Shown here: positions 61-54,856 of the stretch, one piece after another | How the letters are laid out: each line of letters opens with the position of its first letter | Numbering within the stretch: the first letter of the stretch is position 1 | NCBI GenBank assembly: GCA_019429105.1 | Contig: JAHYJE010000012.1 | Coordinates: 1 to 64,000, forward strand | DNA length: 64,000 bases | Origin: Syntrophobacterales bacterium | GTDB taxonomy: Bacteria; Desulfobacterota; Syntrophia; Syntrophales; UBA5619 | Direction of reading: 5' to 3' | Translations under genes and position numbers: made by a program | The notes under the pieces: generated by a model | Databases searched by the model: none | What the model was told of the DNA's origin: nothing | Seen by the model: only the letters and a program-made list of their open reading frames with translations

Positions 61-375
61 TGACCTTGAATCTCCTTGGGGTCAATGGTAGAAGAAAATG
101 GAAGCTTTGTGAATTATGATAAAGAAATTGAGGGGAACAAAACGAAGAAAATGGAAGAAGAATATTTATAAATTTATTTCCAAGGAAGAAGACTCAGTTA
201 CGTCACACACCATGTTCGTCCCGCCAGCTTTAATACAATTCCAGGTCGCCGCTGGCAGGTTTTGCAATTGGCTCGATTAACCAACAGTTCTGCGGCGATT
301 GATTGTTTTACCCCCATTTGTCATTGCGAGCAAACCAAACTTCCAAGCGGCAAGTTCAATTTCCCGGCAACTGGT
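61..375. other. gene-free stretch upstream of the edge gene
   Basis: No convincing coding frame is seen here. It holds the ribosome binding site of the edge gene (72-77). At 259-274 it carries a 16-base exact match to the end of the MITE-like repeat found at 11.6, 51.4 and 53.4 kb. The rest of that repeat is absent, so this may be a relic or chance. Confidence 0.4.
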
Positions 376-11641: not shown

Positions 11642-11777
11642 GAGCCAATTGCAAAACTATTTGTCATTCCCGAAAGCGGAGCTTAATGTACACAATGCTT
11701 CTATCGGGAATACGGTTTTTCAAGCAGTTGGAACCAGATTATGAACATTAAACTTCGTTTTCCCGCTTAAAATCATT
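11642..11777 (-). repeat. MITE-like repeat, copy A (partial, inverted)
   Basis: About 135 bases are nearly identical, in inverted orientation, to the repeats at 51424-51589 and 53437-53584. The 11642 end keeps the terminal sequence CCAATTGCAAAACT and the TTGTCATTCCCG block. The other end stops matching just after the TTTTAAGCGGGAA-type hairpin (here TTCCCGCTTAAAATCATTG), so the far terminus is lost or diverged. It follows the truncated ATPase. Confidence 0.85.
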
Positions 11778-16192: not shown

Positions 16193-16556
16193 TACCATTT
16201 TGCGGAGGGCGTATGCAGTACCTGGATCAGGAAAGGTTGTCTGCGCCGGCAAATGAACTGGGCGACGCCGAGCTCATACTATTTAAAACTGGCTTACGTT
16301 AACTTGAAAATGCGTACATAAATTATTGATATGCAATGGTTTATTTTTTTCAAAATCGCCACGGACGCGGCGGAGCGCGTCCCTCCAGACAAATTTTATG
16401 AACATTAAACTGCGTTTTCAGCCTTCGTGGTGCCTTCTCTGGGATATTCGGTAGTTCTCTCCCTAATATATGCAAATACTGAAATATAAATAAGCAAAGA
16501 CAAAGGTTGGGAAAGCTATTGATTATTCTTGTTATATTTGTAACTAAAATTATTTC
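16193..16556. other. gene-free stretch with hairpin and repeat fragment
   Basis: No gene is seen. A stem-loop GGACGCG-6-CGCGTCC (16363-16382) is followed by a 21-base segment (about 16397-16417) nearly identical to the middle of the MITE-like repeat (ATGAACATTAAACTGCGTTT). The promoter of the MFS gene follows. Confidence 0.4.
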
Positions 16557-49193: not shown

Positions 49194-50942
49194 CTAATTA
49201 AATGAACGGGTAAACGGGTCATCCCCATTTTCGGCAACTGCCGCTCCTTTTGTCGCCATCGGGCCAAAATCTATTTCGTTAAGCGGCGCCCCCGGTTTTA
49301 CCATCGGATAAACGCCCTCTTCCCTGTCAACGATAAAATCCATAACCACTACCCCTTCCGTGGCAAAGGCCTCCTTGATCACCTCTTCAACTTCTGCCAC
49401 TGTCCGCGCCCGCAGCCCCTTGGCGCCATAGGCCTCGGCAATTTTCAAGAAATCGGGATTGTCATCGAGGATAGTCTGGGAATAGCGCTTCTGATAGAAC
49501 TTCTCCTGCCACTGACGAACCATACCCAGGAAACTATTGTTAAGAATCGCTATCTTAACCGGCAGTTTATTCTGCACAGCCGTGCCCAGCTCCTGGATAT
49601 TCATCTGGATACTGCCGTCGCCGGCGACATCGATCACCAGTTTGTCCGGGCACGCCACCTGCGCACCGATGGCGGCAGGGAAGCCGAAGCCCATCGTTCC
49701 CAATCCCCCCGAGGTAAGGAAGCAGTTCGGCTCGTTGTACTGAAAAAACTGCGCCGCCCACATCTGATTCTGCCCCACTTCCGTGGCGATGACGGCTTTG
49801 CCTTGGGATAACTCGTAGAGTTTTTCCACAACAAACTGCGGTTTGATGACATCGCCATTGCTCTTGTAACCCAGCGGATGTTCTCTTTTCCAGGTCATAA
49901 CCTGTTCCTGCCAATCCTTGATGGCGCCGGGCTGGAGATCATTTCTTTCTTTCAATCTGGCAACAAGGACAGAAAGCGCCTGTTTTGCGTCGGCAACGAT
50001 AGAGAGATTCGTCCTGACAATTTTATCGATGGAAACGGGATCAATATCAATGTGAATGATCTGGGCGCGGGGCGCAAAGGCTTCGACCTTGGAAGTTACC
50101 CGGTCATCAAAACGCACGCCAACCCCGATCACAAGATCGCAATTGGTAAAAGCCATATTTGCCGCATAGGTTCCGTGCATTCCCGCCATTCCCAGCCAAA
50201 GCGGATCTGATGCGGGAAACGCGCCCAACCCCATCAGTGTCGAAGTAACCGGAGCGCCAATCATTCTTGCCAATTCCCGCAACTCGCCGGACGCCTTGCC
50301 CAGTGAAACCCCGCCCCCGGCAAAGACAAGGGGATTCCGAGCGGCGGCGACCATTGCCGCGGCCTTGTCTATTGCAGAGGCGGCGGGCATCTCTTCGGCA
50401 TACTGGTAGCCGCTCTGAAAACAGACATCCGCTTCTTCCATTTCCGCCTGCATGACATCCTTGGGAAGATCAACCAGCACGGGGCCAGGTCTGCCCGAAC
50501 GGGCAATATGAAACGCCTCCCGCACAACCTTTCCCAGTTCGGCGACATTGCGCACAAGAAAGTTGTGTTTGGTGCAGGGGCGAGTAATCCCCATTATATC
50601 AACCTCTTGAAAAGCATCGCTGCCGATCAGGGGAGTTGGCACCTGCCCCGTCAGGATAACGACAGGGATGGAATCGCTATGCGCGTTGGCGATTCCGGTA
50701 ACCGTATTGGTGGCGCCGGGACCGGAAGTCACCAGACAGACGCCGACCTTTCCTGAAGCCCGCGCGTAACCGTCGGCGGCGTGAATGGCGCCTTGTTCGT
50801 GCCTGACCAGAATATGCCGTACCTTTTGGCGATACAATTCGTCATAGATGCCGATAACCGCTCCCCCCGGATAGCCAAAGATTACTTCAACCTTCTCCAT
50901 TTCTAATGCCTTGAACAGAATTTGCGCTCCTGATACCTTCAC
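49194..50942 (-). CDS. ilvB: acetolactate synthase large subunit
   Basis: This ThDP enzyme condenses pyruvate with pyruvate or 2-oxobutyrate for branched-chain amino acids. The GTG at 50942 is chosen because GGAGG lies 7 bases upstream. The 582-residue product then starts MKVSGAQILFKALE. Motifs include FGYPGGAVIGIYDEL with the catalytic Glu region (VRHEQGAIHAADGYAR) and the ThDP site GDGSIQMNIQELGT. The mRNA begins at a promoter and attenuator at 51.0-51.2 kb. Confidence 0.95.
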   Translation of the reverse strand: MKVSGAQILFKALEMEKVEVIFGYPGGAVIGIYDELYRQKVRHILVRHEQGAIHAADGYARASGKVGVCLVTSGPGATNTVTGIANAHSDSIPVVILTGQVPTPLIGSDAFQEVDIMGITRPCTKHNFLVRNVAELGKVVREAFHIARSGRPGPVLVDLPKDVMQAEMEEADVCFQSGYQYAEEMPAASAIDKAAAMVAAARNPLVFAGGGVSLGKASGELRELARMIGAPVTSTLMGLGAFPASDPLWLGMAGMHGTYAANMAFTNCDLVIGVGVRFDDRVTSKVEAFAPRAQIIHIDIDPVSIDKIVRTNLSIVADAKQALSVLVARLKERNDLQPGAIKDWQEQVMTWKREHPLGYKSNGDVIKPQFVVEKLYELSQGKAVIATEVGQNQMWAAQFFQYNEPNCFLTSGGLGTMGFGFPAAIGAQVACPDKLVIDVAGDGSIQMNIQELGTAVQNKLPVKIAILNNSFLGMVRQWQEKFYQKRYSQTILDDNPDFLKIAEAYGAKGLRARTVAEVEEVIKEAFATEGVVVMDFIVDREEGVYPMVKPGAPLNEIDFGPMATKGAAVAENGDDPFTRSFN

Positions 50943-50998
50943 TTCCGACCTCCAGTTTTTGAGGATTTTCCCAATTTGACGCGCCCTGCCCGGCGCAC

Positions 50999-51036
50999 AA
51001 AAAAAAACCGTTGCCAACCTTTTCGGCTGGCAACGG
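50999..51036 (-). terminator. ilvBN attenuator terminator
   Basis: On the minus strand CCGTTGCCA, an 11-base loop and TGGCAACGG are followed by nine T's. It lies between the Ile-rich leader ORF and ilvB, the place expected of an attenuator. Confidence 0.85.
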
Positions 51037-51059
51037 TTTAAATGCAAAACAACAAACCA

Positions 51060-51131
51060 CTATCCAGCCGGGACCTCCCCGATAATAATTATGCTGATAA
51101 TAATGGTTGCTGCCGTTATGTTTAACATCAT
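51060..51131 (-). CDS. Ile-rich leader peptide of the ilvBN operon
   Basis: A 23-codon ORF (ATG at 51131, TAG at 51062-51060) preceded by GGAGAG encodes a peptide beginning MMLNITAAT. Runs of three and four isoleucine codons follow, separated by Ser: 8 of 23 residues are Ile (ATT, ATC and ATA), with one Leu and one Val. The stop lies 23 bases before a T-tailed hairpin that precedes ilvB. Ribosome stalling at Ile codons when Ile-tRNA is short would favour read-through. This is inferred from the classical attenuation model. Confidence 0.85.
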   Translation of the reverse strand: MMLNITAATIIISIIIIGEVPAG

Positions 51132-51154
51132 ACTCTCCATGTAATGTTGCCATG

Positions 51155-51184
51155 CCTATAGCAACAGTCTGTTTCTTTTGTCAA
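51155..51184 (-). promoter_or_regulatory. promoter of the ilvBN leader
   Basis: On the minus strand TTGACA (51184-51179), an 18-base spacer and TATAGG (51160-51155) give a sigma70-like promoter about 24 bases before the leader-peptide ATG. Confidence 0.6.
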
Positions 51185-51207
51185 GAATTATTTATCTGCG
51201 TGCGGCT

Positions 51208-51390
51208 CTAAGGATGGGCAGTCAGCAAATCAATGAGCGGCGCATAAAATCCTCCCCAATAAGTTAGAGCCAGCAAAATAACCGTAGCAATGAAACTTGC
51301 CAGGGAATTGCGGTTGCTGTCAATCATTGAAGTAATGAAATTAAACACAAGCGCCGCGATAAAAATTATCTGAGGCAAGGCTTCTTGCAT
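51208..51390 (-). CDS. small two-helix membrane protein
   Basis: The 60-residue protein has two hydrophobic helices (about 7-23 and 30-52; LPQIIFIAALVFNFITS and LASFIATVILLALTYWGGFY) split by a short polar turn (DSNRN). A GGAG site precedes the ATG. It resembles small phage-type membrane proteins in layout, but I recognise no named family. It lies between ilvB and a MITE-like repeat. Confidence 0.6.
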   Translation of the reverse strand: MQEALPQIIFIAALVFNFITSMIDSNRNSLASFIATVILLALTYWGGFYAPLIDLLTAHP

Positions 51391-51423
51391 TCATATTCTC
51401 CTATTAAAATAAATAAGTAGAGG

Positions 51424-51589
51424 CAATTGCAAAACTCTCACATTCTGTCATTCCCGCAATGATTTTAAGCGGGAAAACGAAGTTTAATGTTCATAATCTG
51501 GTTCTAACTGCTTGAAAAACCGTATTCCCGATAGAAGCATTGTGTACATTAAGCTCCGCTTTCGGGAATGACAAATAGTTTTGCAATTG
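51424..51589 (+). repeat. MITE-like repeat, copy B (full length)
   Basis: The 166-base element has perfect 13-base terminal inverted repeats CAATTGCAAAACT / AGTTTTGCAATTG, extendable to GAG.CAATTG at both ends. Inside are TGTCATTCCCGC and GCGGGAA hairpin arms at the left, and ATTCCCGA / TCGGGAAT arms at the right. It encodes no protein. Near-identical copies are at 53437-53584 and, inverted, at 11642-11777. Confidence 0.9.
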
Positions 51590-51617
51590 GCTCAGTATGG
51601 TCGAATAATTTTGCCTC

Positions 51618-52403
51618 TCAACCTGCAAAGGCGGCGGTAAGTGCGTCAACCAGCTCCGGGATAGTGGCGCGCTTTTGACGGATATGGACGGGTAACCCCG
51701 CCTTTTCCGCCGCCGCCTCCGTTACCGGGCCAATAGTCGCCACCTTGACCTGGGACGGAAGATGGAAATTCCCTCCCATGATCTTCATAAAATTGACGAC
51801 GGTAGAACCACTGGTAAAGATAAGGACGGAAATCTCACCATCCTCAAAAAGGCGAATCAGTTCAGATGGATCCCTGTCCGTGCCAATCGTTCGATACACA
51901 GTTGCCACCTCGACGGTTGCGCCCAGCCTGGCAAGTCCTGCGGGGATAACATCGCGCGCTTCCTGAGCGCGGGGCAGCAGAACACTGCATCCCTGCAAAT
52001 CACGCCCGGCAAAGGCCTTAACCACCCCCTCCGAAACGAATTCATCCGGCATCAGATCGACTTTTATTCCCCATGCCTCGATTGCCGCTGCCGTTGCCGG
52101 GCCGATAGCGGCAATCTTTACGCCCTGGAGCGCCCGGATGTCTTTCCCCTGCTCTCTCAGACGCCCAAAGAAAAAAGCCACCCCGTTGGCGCTGGTAAAA
52201 ATAATCCAGCGATAAGATTCCAGCTTCTCGAGCGCCCTATCCAGCATAGACCAGTCTGCGGGCGGCGCTATTTGGATGACCGGAAAATTTATCACCCTCG
52301 CCCCCCGGGCTGAAAGCAACCTCGTCAGCTCTCCCGACTGCTTCTCCGGCCTGGTGATAACGACCCCTCTGCCAGACAGGGGTTTTGTCTCAATCCCGTT
52401 CAT
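51618..52403 (-). CDS. hemD: uroporphyrinogen-III synthase
   Basis: HemD closes hydroxymethylbilane to uroporphyrinogen III. The 261-residue protein has GVVITRPEKQSGELTRLLSA at the N-terminus, RWIIFTSANGVAFFFGRL, and ISVLIFTSGSTVVNFMKIMG at the C-terminal lobe, typical of this weakly conserved family. It is a stand-alone gene; many relatives fuse it to the CobA methyltransferase. It follows hemC by 44 bases. Confidence 0.9.
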   Translation of the reverse strand: MNGIETKPLSGRGVVITRPEKQSGELTRLLSARGARVINFPVIQIAPPADWSMLDRALEKLESYRWIIFTSANGVAFFFGRLREQGKDIRALQGVKIAAIGPATAAAIEAWGIKVDLMPDEFVSEGVVKAFAGRDLQGCSVLLPRAQEARDVIPAGLARLGATVEVATVYRTIGTDRDPSELIRLFEDGEISVLIFTSGSTVVNFMKIMGGNFHLPSQVKVATIGPVTEAAAEKAGLPVHIRQKRATIPELVDALTAAFAG

Positions 52404-52447
52404 CGTATTCCCCGTATTTTGCCCGGATAAATGAGCCGGGCATCAGT

Positions 52448-53383
52448 TCAAGATAAGTTTTCCTGATTAATTTCAGCAAGCAGCACGTCCCCTCCCCGCA
52501 GCAGGATGGTTTCCGCCAAGCCTCTGCCGAGCTTTCGGTAATCGCCGGCTTCCCCCTCGGCGCGCTCGCGGATCACGACCTTCCCGTCGAGACTCCCCAC
52601 CATGCCCTCAATGACTATCTTTCCCCCGTTTTTTTTCGCGAATCCGGCAATAGGAAGCTGGCAACCGCCGCCGAGTCGCTCCAGAAATGCCCGTTCCGCT
52701 CCTGCTTCTACAAAAGTGACGGGATCATTCAAAAATTCAATAATATTCAGGCTGCGGTCATCGCCCCGTCTCGTTTCCAACCCCAGCACCCCCTGCCCTA
52801 CGGCCGGCAGCAACATATCCACAGGAATAAATTGAGAAACGCGGGAACTCCATCCCATCCTCGCGATCCCCGCCGCGGCAAGGATAACGCCGCTCAAATT
52901 TTCCGTGTCCAGCTTCCTTATTCTCGTATCGAGGTTGCCCCGCATCGGCACAATCTCAAAACCGGGGAAACGGTTTTTCAATTGCAGCTCGCGCCTGAGC
53001 GAACCGGTCCCTATTTTCGCACCCGGAGGCATTTCTGCAAGCTTGCGGCCGCCTTTCGAGATCAGAACGTCGCGGGGATCCTCCCTCAGAGGCGTTACGG
53101 CAATTTCCAGTTTGTCCGGGAGTTCTGCCGGGACGTCCTTCATACTGTGGACGGCCAGATCGACATCGTTCCTGAGCAGGGCCTCTTCGATCTCCTTGAT
53201 AAAGACCCCCTTGCCGCCAATCACGGACAGGGCGACGTTCTGCATGATGTCCCCCTTGGTTCGAATTATCCGCAGCTCGACCTCAAGGCCAGGATGCCTC
53301 CCCCGGATGAGGTCGGCGATCATCCCCGACTGGGTAAGCGCCAAGGCGCTGCCTCTCGTTCCAATGATGAATTTATTTAAAAT
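52448..53383 (-). CDS. hemC: porphobilinogen deaminase (hydroxymethylbilane synthase)
   Basis: HemC links four porphobilinogens. The protein begins NKFIIGTRGSALALTQSGM and carries the dipyrromethane cofactor cysteine in LGGGCQLPIAGFA. Length is about 310. The start is unusual: the only in-frame ATG/GTG/TTG before the conserved start is a TTG at 53410 without a ribosome site. A perfect AGGAGG lies five bases before an in-frame ATT at 53383, which I take as the probable start. Confidence 0.9.
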   Translation of the reverse strand: MLNKFIIGTRGSALALTQSGMIADLIRGRHPGLEVELRIIRTKGDIMQNVALSVIGGKGVFIKEIEEALLRNDVDLAVHSMKDVPAELPDKLEIAVTPLREDPRDVLISKGGRKLAEMPPGAKIGTGSLRRELQLKNRFPGFEIVPMRGNLDTRIRKLDTENLSGVILAAAGIARMGWSSRVSQFIPVDMLLPAVGQGVLGLETRRGDDRSLNIIEFLNDPVTFVEAGAERAFLERLGGGCQLPIAGFAKKNGGKIVIEGMVGSLDGKVVIRERAEGEAGDYRKLGRGLAETILLRGGDVLLAEINQENLS

Positions 53384-53436
53384 AACAACCTCCTGAGCCT
53401 TAAGCTGCAAAGTTAGATAAATTTAAACAAGCGAGG

Positions 53437-53584
53437 AAATTGCAAAACTCTCACATTCTGTCATTCCCGCAATGATTTTAAGCGGGAATCTGGTTCTAAC
53501 TGCTTGAAAAACCGTATTCCCGATAGAAGCATTGTGTACATTAAGCTCCGCTTTCGGGAATGACAAATAGTTTTGCAATTGGCT
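53437..53584 (+). repeat. MITE-like repeat, copy C (21-bp internal deletion)
   Basis: It is nearly identical to copy B but lacks 21 bases after GCGGGAA. The terminal repeats AATTGCAAAACT / AGTTTTGCAATT are intact. It fills the gap between hemA (stop at 53591) and hemC, inside what should be one transcript. Confidence 0.9.
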
Positions 53585-53590
53585 CAAGCG

Positions 53591-54856
53591 TCAAAGCTTG
53601 AAAAGTCGGCGAATAGCCGCCATATCGGGCAGCTCGTCCCCCTCGCTGCTTTCCTCCTTCAAGACGGTTATCGGGTCGTGGAGTATCTTGTTTACAACCG
53701 AGGATACCAGCCATTCGACATGGGCGCGGTCCTCTTCCTTAAGTCCTCCCAGCCACGCAGAAAATCGGGCCAGCTCTCCCTGCACGATACTGTCCGTCTT
53801 TTCACGCAGTCTCACGATCGCCGGCACGGCGGCCAGCGAATTGAACCATTTTTCAAATCCCGCCACCTCTTCGGCAATGAGTTCCTCAGCCCGCAGGGCT
53901 TCTCCCCGGCGCATTGCCCTGTTCGCATCAACGACATCCTGAAGATGGTCTATATTGTACAAATAAACGTTATCAAGTTCTCCTACTTCGGGCTCTATGT
54001 CCCTCGGAACGGCGATATCTATCAAAAACAGCATATGCTGCTTATGTTTATGCTTCTTCAAGGCAGCGGCAACCATCGGGGCGGTGAGGATATAGCCCGG
54101 GGCGCCGGTTGAAGCGATAACGATATCAACCTCCGGCAGAAACGAGGGAAATTCATCAAAAGAGACGGCGGCGCCATGAAATTCCTCCGCCATTTGCTGC
54201 GCCCTCGCGATAGTTCTATTGGCGATGAAGAGGTTGCCGGCGCCCTGACGAATCAGATGGCGGGCGGCAAGTTCCGACATCTCGCCTGCGCCTATCAGGA
54301 GCGCCGCCTTTCCCTTGAGGCTGCCGAATATCTTTTTCGCCAGTTCCACGGCGGCATAACTTACCGAAACGGCATTGCCGGCAATTTCCGTCTCGCTTCT
54401 CACCCTCTTTGCCACCTGAAAGGCATGGTGGGTAAGGCGGTTCAGCAGAACGCCGGTGGCATGGCGATCAACGGCCATCCGATAGGCATCCTTTATCTGC
54501 CCAAGGATCTGCGGCTCCCCCATAACCATTGAATCAAGGCTGGATGCAACCCTAAAGAGGTGCAGCACTGCATCGATATCCCTGTAAATGTAAAGATATT
54601 TTTCCGTTTCATTGATATCGAAATTTCCCTGTGTGCACATGAAATTCTTCAGAAAATCCTCGCCCCGCGCCGTATCGCCGAGACGGGCGATCACCTCAAT
54701 CCGGTTGCAGGTTGCAAGGCAGATCGCCTCTTTTATCTCGGGGTTCATCATCAAATCAGGGAGGGCGACGTCCTGATCCGAGCAGTAGTTCTGGAGGCGC
54801 TCGCGAAGCTCGACGGGCGCTGTTTTATAATTCATGCCGACAAGGATAAGTTTCAT
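53591..54856 (-). CDS. hemA: glutamyl-tRNA reductase
   Basis: HemA reduces Glu-tRNA to glutamate-1-semialdehyde, the first step of C5 tetrapyrrole synthesis. The 421-residue protein has VGMNYKTAPVELRERL, the catalytic cysteine in CLATCNRIEVIA, the NADPH domain (ALLIGAGEMSELAARHL) and a C-terminal dimerisation helix region. It follows the ccsA-like gene by 4 bases, the common hemX-hemA pairing. Confidence 0.95.
   Translation of the reverse strand: MKLILVGMNYKTAPVELRERLQNYCSDQDVALPDLMMNPEIKEAICLATCNRIEVIARLGDTARGEDFLKNFMCTQGNFDINETEKYLYIYRDIDAVLHLFRVASSLDSMVMGEPQILGQIKDAYRMAVDRHATGVLLNRLTHHAFQVAKRVRSETEIAGNAVSVSYAAVELAKKIFGSLKGKAALLIGAGEMSELAARHLIRQGAGNLFIANRTIARAQQMAEEFHGAAVSFDEFPSFLPEVDIVIASTGAPGYILTAPMVAAALKKHKHKQHMLFLIDIAVPRDIEPEVGELDNVYLYNIDHLQDVVDANRAMRRGEALRAEELIAEEVAGFEKWFNSLAAVPAIVRLREKTDSIVQGELARFSAWLGGLKEEDRAHVEWLVSSVVNKILHDPITVLKEESSEGDELPDMAAIRRLFKL

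Follow-up and report, generated by a model that had tools for sequence, protein, structure and literature searches.

The Chunjie miniature inverted-repeat transposable element (MITE) of Geobacter uraniireducens is 178-235 bp long and occurs in many copies, and there is a precedent, judged by the title of a Chunjie study referenced in the same article, for a MITE inside an operon that was left working (PMC10969869, in the part consulted). The family described here resembles Chunjie in being a short element with terminal inverted repeats and direct repeats, in its many copies and size variation, and in having a copy in an operon. It is, however, 132-176 bp rather than 178-235 bp long, the likeness drawn here covers these descriptive features, and 21-bp modular units such as those of the present MITE are not mentioned in the consulted part of PMC10969869. 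These units invite comparison with other dispersed repeats. Like the REP elements of TnpA-REP (RAYT) systems, the unit is a putative short DNA hairpin of high copy number that lies beside a short conserved motif and can be tandem, but REP elements carry GTAG within the element, whereas GAA is supplied by the target of the unit, which is 21 bp long with a 4-bp stem and occurs also in coding starts (PMC8266576, sections consulted). Rickettsia palindromic elements likewise insert in frame into genes that are unrelated to one another, but they are palindromes of about 150 bp; the unit is in frame but has only 21 bp and lies at start codons and inside MITEs, so it does not qualify as one of them (PMC10969869, same part). 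PARCEL repeats, which are also palindromic, coding, tandem and dispersed, are 25-residue repeats in arrays, as opposed to the 7-residue start-codon insert that the unit encodes (PMC2996958, in excerpt). Our literature searches found no paper pairing 'miniature inverted-repeat transposable' with Syntrophus and none with the unit strings or heptapeptide strings; nothing like the unit was found.

The window, by which we mean the whole 64,000-nucleotide stretch of Syntrophobacterales DNA analysed here, holds three copies of a palindromic repeat (Table 1), which we read, with a probability of roughly 0.88, as members of a recently amplified MITE family with a modular core and 21-bp units, the units being separately dispersed micro-inserts. 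The original prediction of a MITE was right, given many copies, target duplications and an insertion sequence (IS) with matching ends, as was its view that the copy at 11.6 kb is inverted and partial. Copies B and C are complete, whereas 136 of the first 137 bases of copy A are identical to copy B, after which homology ends and the second end is absent. The terminal inverted repeats are real, with GAGSYAATTGCAAAAC at both MITE ends, but the 12-13 bases first assigned to them were too few; the true ends lie 1-4 bases further out and the repeat begins at GAG. The ends of copies B and C read GAG(G/C)(C/T)AATTGCAAAAC, the outermost bases being GAGGC or GAGCC followed by AATTGCAAAACT. Two small fragments had also been suspected. 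That at 259-274 is an exact lone MITE end, and that at 16397-16417 is real but not a MITE, being the solo 21-bp unit listed in Table 1.

Table 1. Coordinates of the repeats, units and heme genes in the window.
Feature	Position	Strand	Remarks
MITE copy A	11642 to about 11778	-	inverted, truncated; keeps one terminal repeat
MITE copy B	51420..51593	+	174 bp = 132-bp core + two 21-bp units; target duplication AGTA/AGTA
MITE copy C	53433..53585	+	153 bp = core + one unit (site R only); target duplication AAGC/AAGC
Lone terminal repeat GAGCCAATTGCAAAAC, exact end	259..274	-	partner end not seen
21-bp unit, site R, copy A	11675..11695	+	
21-bp unit, site L, copy A	11739..11759	-	
Solo 21-bp unit AACGCAGTTTAATGTTCATAA, outside any MITE	16396..16416	-	directly after CTGAA
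21-bp unit, site L, copy B, AACGAAGTTTAATGTTCATAA	51476..51496	+	directly after GGGAA
21-bp unit, site R, copy B, AGCGGAGCTTAATGTACACAA	51540..51560	-	directly after CCCGAA
21-bp unit, site R, copy C	53532..53552	-	
hemD, uroporphyrinogen-III synthase	51618..52403	-	Pfam
hemC, porphobilinogen deaminase	52448..53410	-	Pfam
hemA, glutamyl-tRNA reductase (GlutR)	53591..54856	-	Pfam

The search for further copies reveals a large family. The exact 16-base MITE end occurs 191 times in the 3.1-Mb genome (95 + 96), which is far above chance, as the reversed-pattern control does not occur; the core 31-mer, at up to 3 mismatches, occurs at least 64 times in this genome and not at all in 20 other genomes, one of which is of the same genus. 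A DNA search with copy B, which scored only 40 of the 191 first-look candidates, gave at least 45 matches; 40 span nearly the whole element, and their identities are 96-100%. The 16-base end is present in 25 of the 149 genomes of the order, including the source genome, with differing interiors, and the 31 MITE copies of 174 bp found here have a mean identity of 98.9%; thus the family is old and the burst in this genome young. Target-site duplications, the other feature that had been proposed for checking, are 4 bp long. The loci examined contain 51 separate copies that have both ends (one a nested composite), and the duplication is exact in 37, has one mismatch in 5 and more mismatches in 9, compared with 0-2 exact when the frame is shifted by 1-6 bases and 0.8% with random pairing. 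One MITE, at L051:2664-2974, is nested in a MITE of a different subfamily and has its own 4-bp duplication, TCCA. Copy B has no match in the phage and plasmid collections, and Rfam has none for positions 50800-54200. A viral scan with the 16-base end gave at least 120 stretches, with a single match each among the 80 listed, which were treated as chance and not used. At the level of sequence comparison the MITE has demonstrably been mobile, and its nature is settled in kind: the family is new, the type of element known.

With a length of 132-176 bp and terminal inverted repeats of about 17 bp, the MITE is too short to encode a transposase. The prediction had called for a transposase with the same ends, and one is present in a relative (genome G004), though none was found in the source assembly. 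The relative carries a 1510-bp IS with MITE-type ends, GAGGTAATTGCAAAAGTC and GAGCCAATTGCAAAACTC, a TGTT duplication and a 365-aa ORF with Pfam domains DUF772 and DDE_Tnp_1, the product of which has 100% protein identity to one in MICJ01000061.1 of Syntrophobacterales bacterium GWC2_56_13. The likeness between the MITE interior and this IS is confined to the ends. The 365-aa transposase is present in 7 of 149 genomes, and it has no match at E<=1e-10 in the source genome or its congener. Its Pfam domains and its best NCBIfam matches, to the IS1182 and IS5 models, liken it to IS5/IS1182-type enzymes, but with scores of 68.8 of 270 and 63.3 of 140 it is far below the curated cut-offs, no NCBIfam model being exceeded, and its GAG-type ends and 4-bp duplications look like those of a separate group. 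The public genomes yielded 139 relatives of the transposase, from which 80 loci were kept and 54 scanned; GAG-type ends with an exact 4-bp duplication flank 15 of the 54, three from one chromosome, a count biased upward by a locus ranking that rewarded a duplication.

We infer that a DDE transposase, duplicating 4 bp of the target, would mobilise the MITE hairpins, which are non-coding, in trans; from its sequence, the 365-aa DUF772/DDE_Tnp_1 protein is the best enzyme candidate and its IS the likely autonomous partner. An autonomous copy in this organism could be hidden by loss of collapsed repeat contigs from the draft assembly, in which several contigs break off about 105-130 bp into a MITE. 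The genome's own IS transposases (PF01609, 6 hits) were also considered; an IS5-like element (L051) and an IS701-like element (L055) were checked, and neither is enclosed between two MITE ends. The IS701-like element (G000:C17, 775-2380 of the locus) directly adjoins half a MITE, the other half of which is missing.

The difference between copies C and B proved more informative than the clean 21-base deletion first reported for copy C. The 21-base difference is real, exactly AACGAAGTTTAATGTTCATAA being missing up to an AA common to the junction, but it is not a private deletion; it is the presence or absence of a separate repeat unit, common to other copies. At up to 3 mismatches AACGAAGTTTAATGTTCATAA has 144 matches in the source genome, many in MITEs and others alone or as 21-bp tandem pairs. 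By length and unit content, 59 MITE copies comprise 4 with no unit (131-133 bp), 15 with one, 39 of two-unit length (173-176 bp; called by length, with a second unit on the opposite strand in the examples printed) and 1 nested composite. Copy C is filled at site R only, L351 and L100 at site L only, and copy B at both, each site (GCGGGAA^TCTGG and CCCGAA^TGCTTC) being precisely filled or empty. Since copies have neither, either or both units, the MITE is modular, with a core of about 132 bp and two sites that are each empty or hold one unit. At L098:1411-1473 (reverse strand of the locus) three tandem units occupy site R. Units also lie outside the MITE, including in an unrelated hairpin repeat that is filled in 5 contexts and empty in 3; between L413, which is filled, and L069, which is empty, the flanks hardly differ and the unit makes the difference. 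A longer context, GGGCACAACGAATGA followed by the unit and then by a stretch with GATACGGGGTC, recurs at L404, L405, L409, L418 and others, and is apparently another repeat family that carries the unit. The filled and empty sites lead us to read the unit as a dispersed micro-insert placed 3' of GAA, as the sequences demonstrate at each such pair. The possibility that units are arrays of protein-binding sites was set aside given the exact filled/empty pairs.

The unit has the consensus A-N-C-GNA-G-N'-TT-AATGTTCATAA. A set for analysis was defined from 963 contexts with the 13-base tail at up to 3 mismatches, of which 162 have C3 and G7; requiring also A1 and up to 2 tail mismatches leaves 118 contexts with 52 distinct sequences. 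Positions 2 and 8 of these 118 are A-T in 59, G-C in 40, T-A in 10 and other in 9; they are thus Watson-Crick in 109 of 118, compared with a maximum of 68 in 20,000 shuffles, with the proviso that related units are not independent. A second pair-count tool, applied to the 52 distinct units, gave 25 double changes compared with 7.9 on shuffling, none of 500 shuffles being as high, a count to be read for a stem in which only one of four pairs varies, C3 and G7 are required by the set and the outermost base was added by the analyst. The loop is GNA in 111 of 118 contexts, and GAA stands just upstream in 86, being present also in empty sites; tandem second units follow ATAA or ACAA instead of GAA. 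Extraordinary stability is described for DNA mini-hairpins in which two or more G-C pairs close a GNA loop (PMC4686876, in the part consulted), an arrangement that only the AGCGNAGCT variants have. The unit has a predicted 4-bp stem and a GNA loop, with covariation at one pair, but a weak folding energy (-1.3 to 0 kcal/mol with standard DNA parameters). Given the covariation, the short DNA hairpin probably matters for spread of the unit. A 25-mer search at up to 3 mismatches finds the unit in 12 of 149 genomes: the source genome has 113 matches and its congener 63, seven members of genus g40 have 3-8 apiece, G003 has 3, and G013 and G077 have a single one each; viral contigs have no exact unit match.

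Placed 3' of NTG-AA, the unit reads K-TKFNVH and adds seven amino acids, also to products of essential genes. One case is IspD, which was matched in 54 of 61 genomes. Among the 30 IspD N-termini read, 28 lack the unit at their start and mostly read MKTVAIIPAGG, that of the congener carries one unit (MK-TKFNVHK-TVAIIPAGG) and that of the source genome two (MK-TKFNVHK-TKFNVHK-TVAIIPAGG). In ten of ten hand-picked long tagged ORFs the Pfam match starts after the tag; the matches are to IspD, GFO/IDH/MocA, POR, class-V aminotransferase, YitT, penicillin amidase, periplasmic binding protein, HD, biotin-lipoyl (below cut-off) and POTRA/FtsQ-type domains. At L369:493-999 the N-terminus of an FtsQ-type POTRA protein carries two units that have diverged, MKPDVNVHKPKFNVHK. 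Of the 40 NTGAA contexts, the majority open no long ORF, and start codons may therefore be no more than positions that tolerate an in-frame insert.

Our preferred reading of the unit is that of a micro-insert whose spread does not depend on MITEs. It sits 3' of GAA and is found alone and, often, in tandem, in some cases in frame just behind a start codon. We lean, with some reserve, towards a 21-nucleotide mini-hairpin that is independently mobile, and so about as small as such an element can be pictured, inserts precisely 3' of GAA, extends in tandem seven-codon steps, colonises MITEs and other repeats, repeatedly lands after starts, and gives proteins such as IspD and one resembling FtsQ an MK(TKFNVHK)n tag. 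As to how it would move, insertion of a single-stranded hairpin, by a mechanism of REP/IS200 type, is our leading guess, favoured over template switching. A minimal single-stranded-DNA element moved by a putative HUH (Y1, REP-type) transposase and inserted 3' of a short target is a tentative proposal, consistent with the covariation-conserved hairpin and its GNA loop, with an orientation fixed 3' of GAA and with the lack of a clear target duplication; REP elements are likewise short hairpins beside a tetranucleotide (PMC8266576, sections consulted). The 4-bp stem is, however, very small for such an element, and the conserved tetranucleotide within the element, usually GTAG, that marks REP elements is not found in the unit, the GAA of which belongs to the target, lying upstream in 86 of 118 contexts and also in empty sites. 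We are more doubtful that the unit spreads by replication template switching between microhomologous AA pairs, a process that would need no enzyme of its own and in which the 21-bp length would come from tandem donors. Both junctions are AA and tandem arrays are present, as such switching would have it, but it leaves the GAA preference (86/118), the covarying stem and the GNA loop unexplained.

It is improbable that selection, rather than insertion, gave rise to the unit at many genes as a regulatory or translation-enhancing motif. AT-rich early codons can aid translation, and several units do lie at start codons or in 5' regions, but the exact 21-bp filled/empty pairs, the units inside MITEs and other repeats, and the near-identity of the 21-mers over their whole length all argue for insertion. 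Slightly less probable still is that the unit spreads only as a passenger of the MITE, with solo copies as MITE relics; many units are inside MITEs, but ispD differs between genomes by precisely one unit or two, free of any MITE sequence, the 63 unit matches of the congener are accompanied by none of the MITE core, and the unrelated hairpin repeat is filled in 5 contexts and empty in 3, with L413 and L069 nearly the same in their flanks.

In the heme operon, as predicted, copy C fills the gap between hemA and hemC, with the hemA stop on one side and the ribosome-binding region of hemC on the other, and copy B follows hemD, the genes being confirmed by Pfam. Of 20 relatives, 19 gave a hemA match; with tblastn the hemA-hemC gap is readable in 16 of the 19 loci, the other three having no hemC downstream within the locus, and the MITE is absent from all 16 readable gaps, including that of the congener. 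Three relatives (G002, G005 and G007, at L316, L317 and L319) have a different palindromic repeat, GGGGACACGATGCGGCATCGTGTCCCC, in the same gap, which thus receives unrelated repeats. The RNAs of the two hem MITEs, on the transcribed strand, have predicted folding energies of -52.6 and -57.6 kcal/mol (z about -6; -6.0 to -6.9 for the element), and the terminator scan found no terminator-like site inside copy B or C. Most likely, on this modelling, copy C would add a stable, non-terminating hairpin to the hemA-hemC mRNA, and hem transcription would be expected to continue, with local mRNA structure. That the element is not mobile but instead serves the hem operon as a conserved hairpin for regulation or processing, the outcome that the original prediction tied to only these copies existing and being conserved in place, is very improbable despite the stable fold and the two copies flanking hemC-hemD, given the 64 or more cores across the genome, the target duplications, the missing terminator-like sites and the empty hemA-hemC site in 16/16 readable relatives; conservation in place is rejected as its primary origin.

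The overall results have implications at two scales. The MITE, with its candidate transposase, is a good system in which to study insertion inside an essential operon because it is recent. The micro-insert matters more than the MITE. The exact filled/empty pairs make its mobility directly testable, and a 21-bp hairpin that moves by itself would be far below the minimum size usually assumed for mobile elements. If it does move so, the unit alters protein N-termini in frame and would provide a compact substrate for finding the responsible enzyme.
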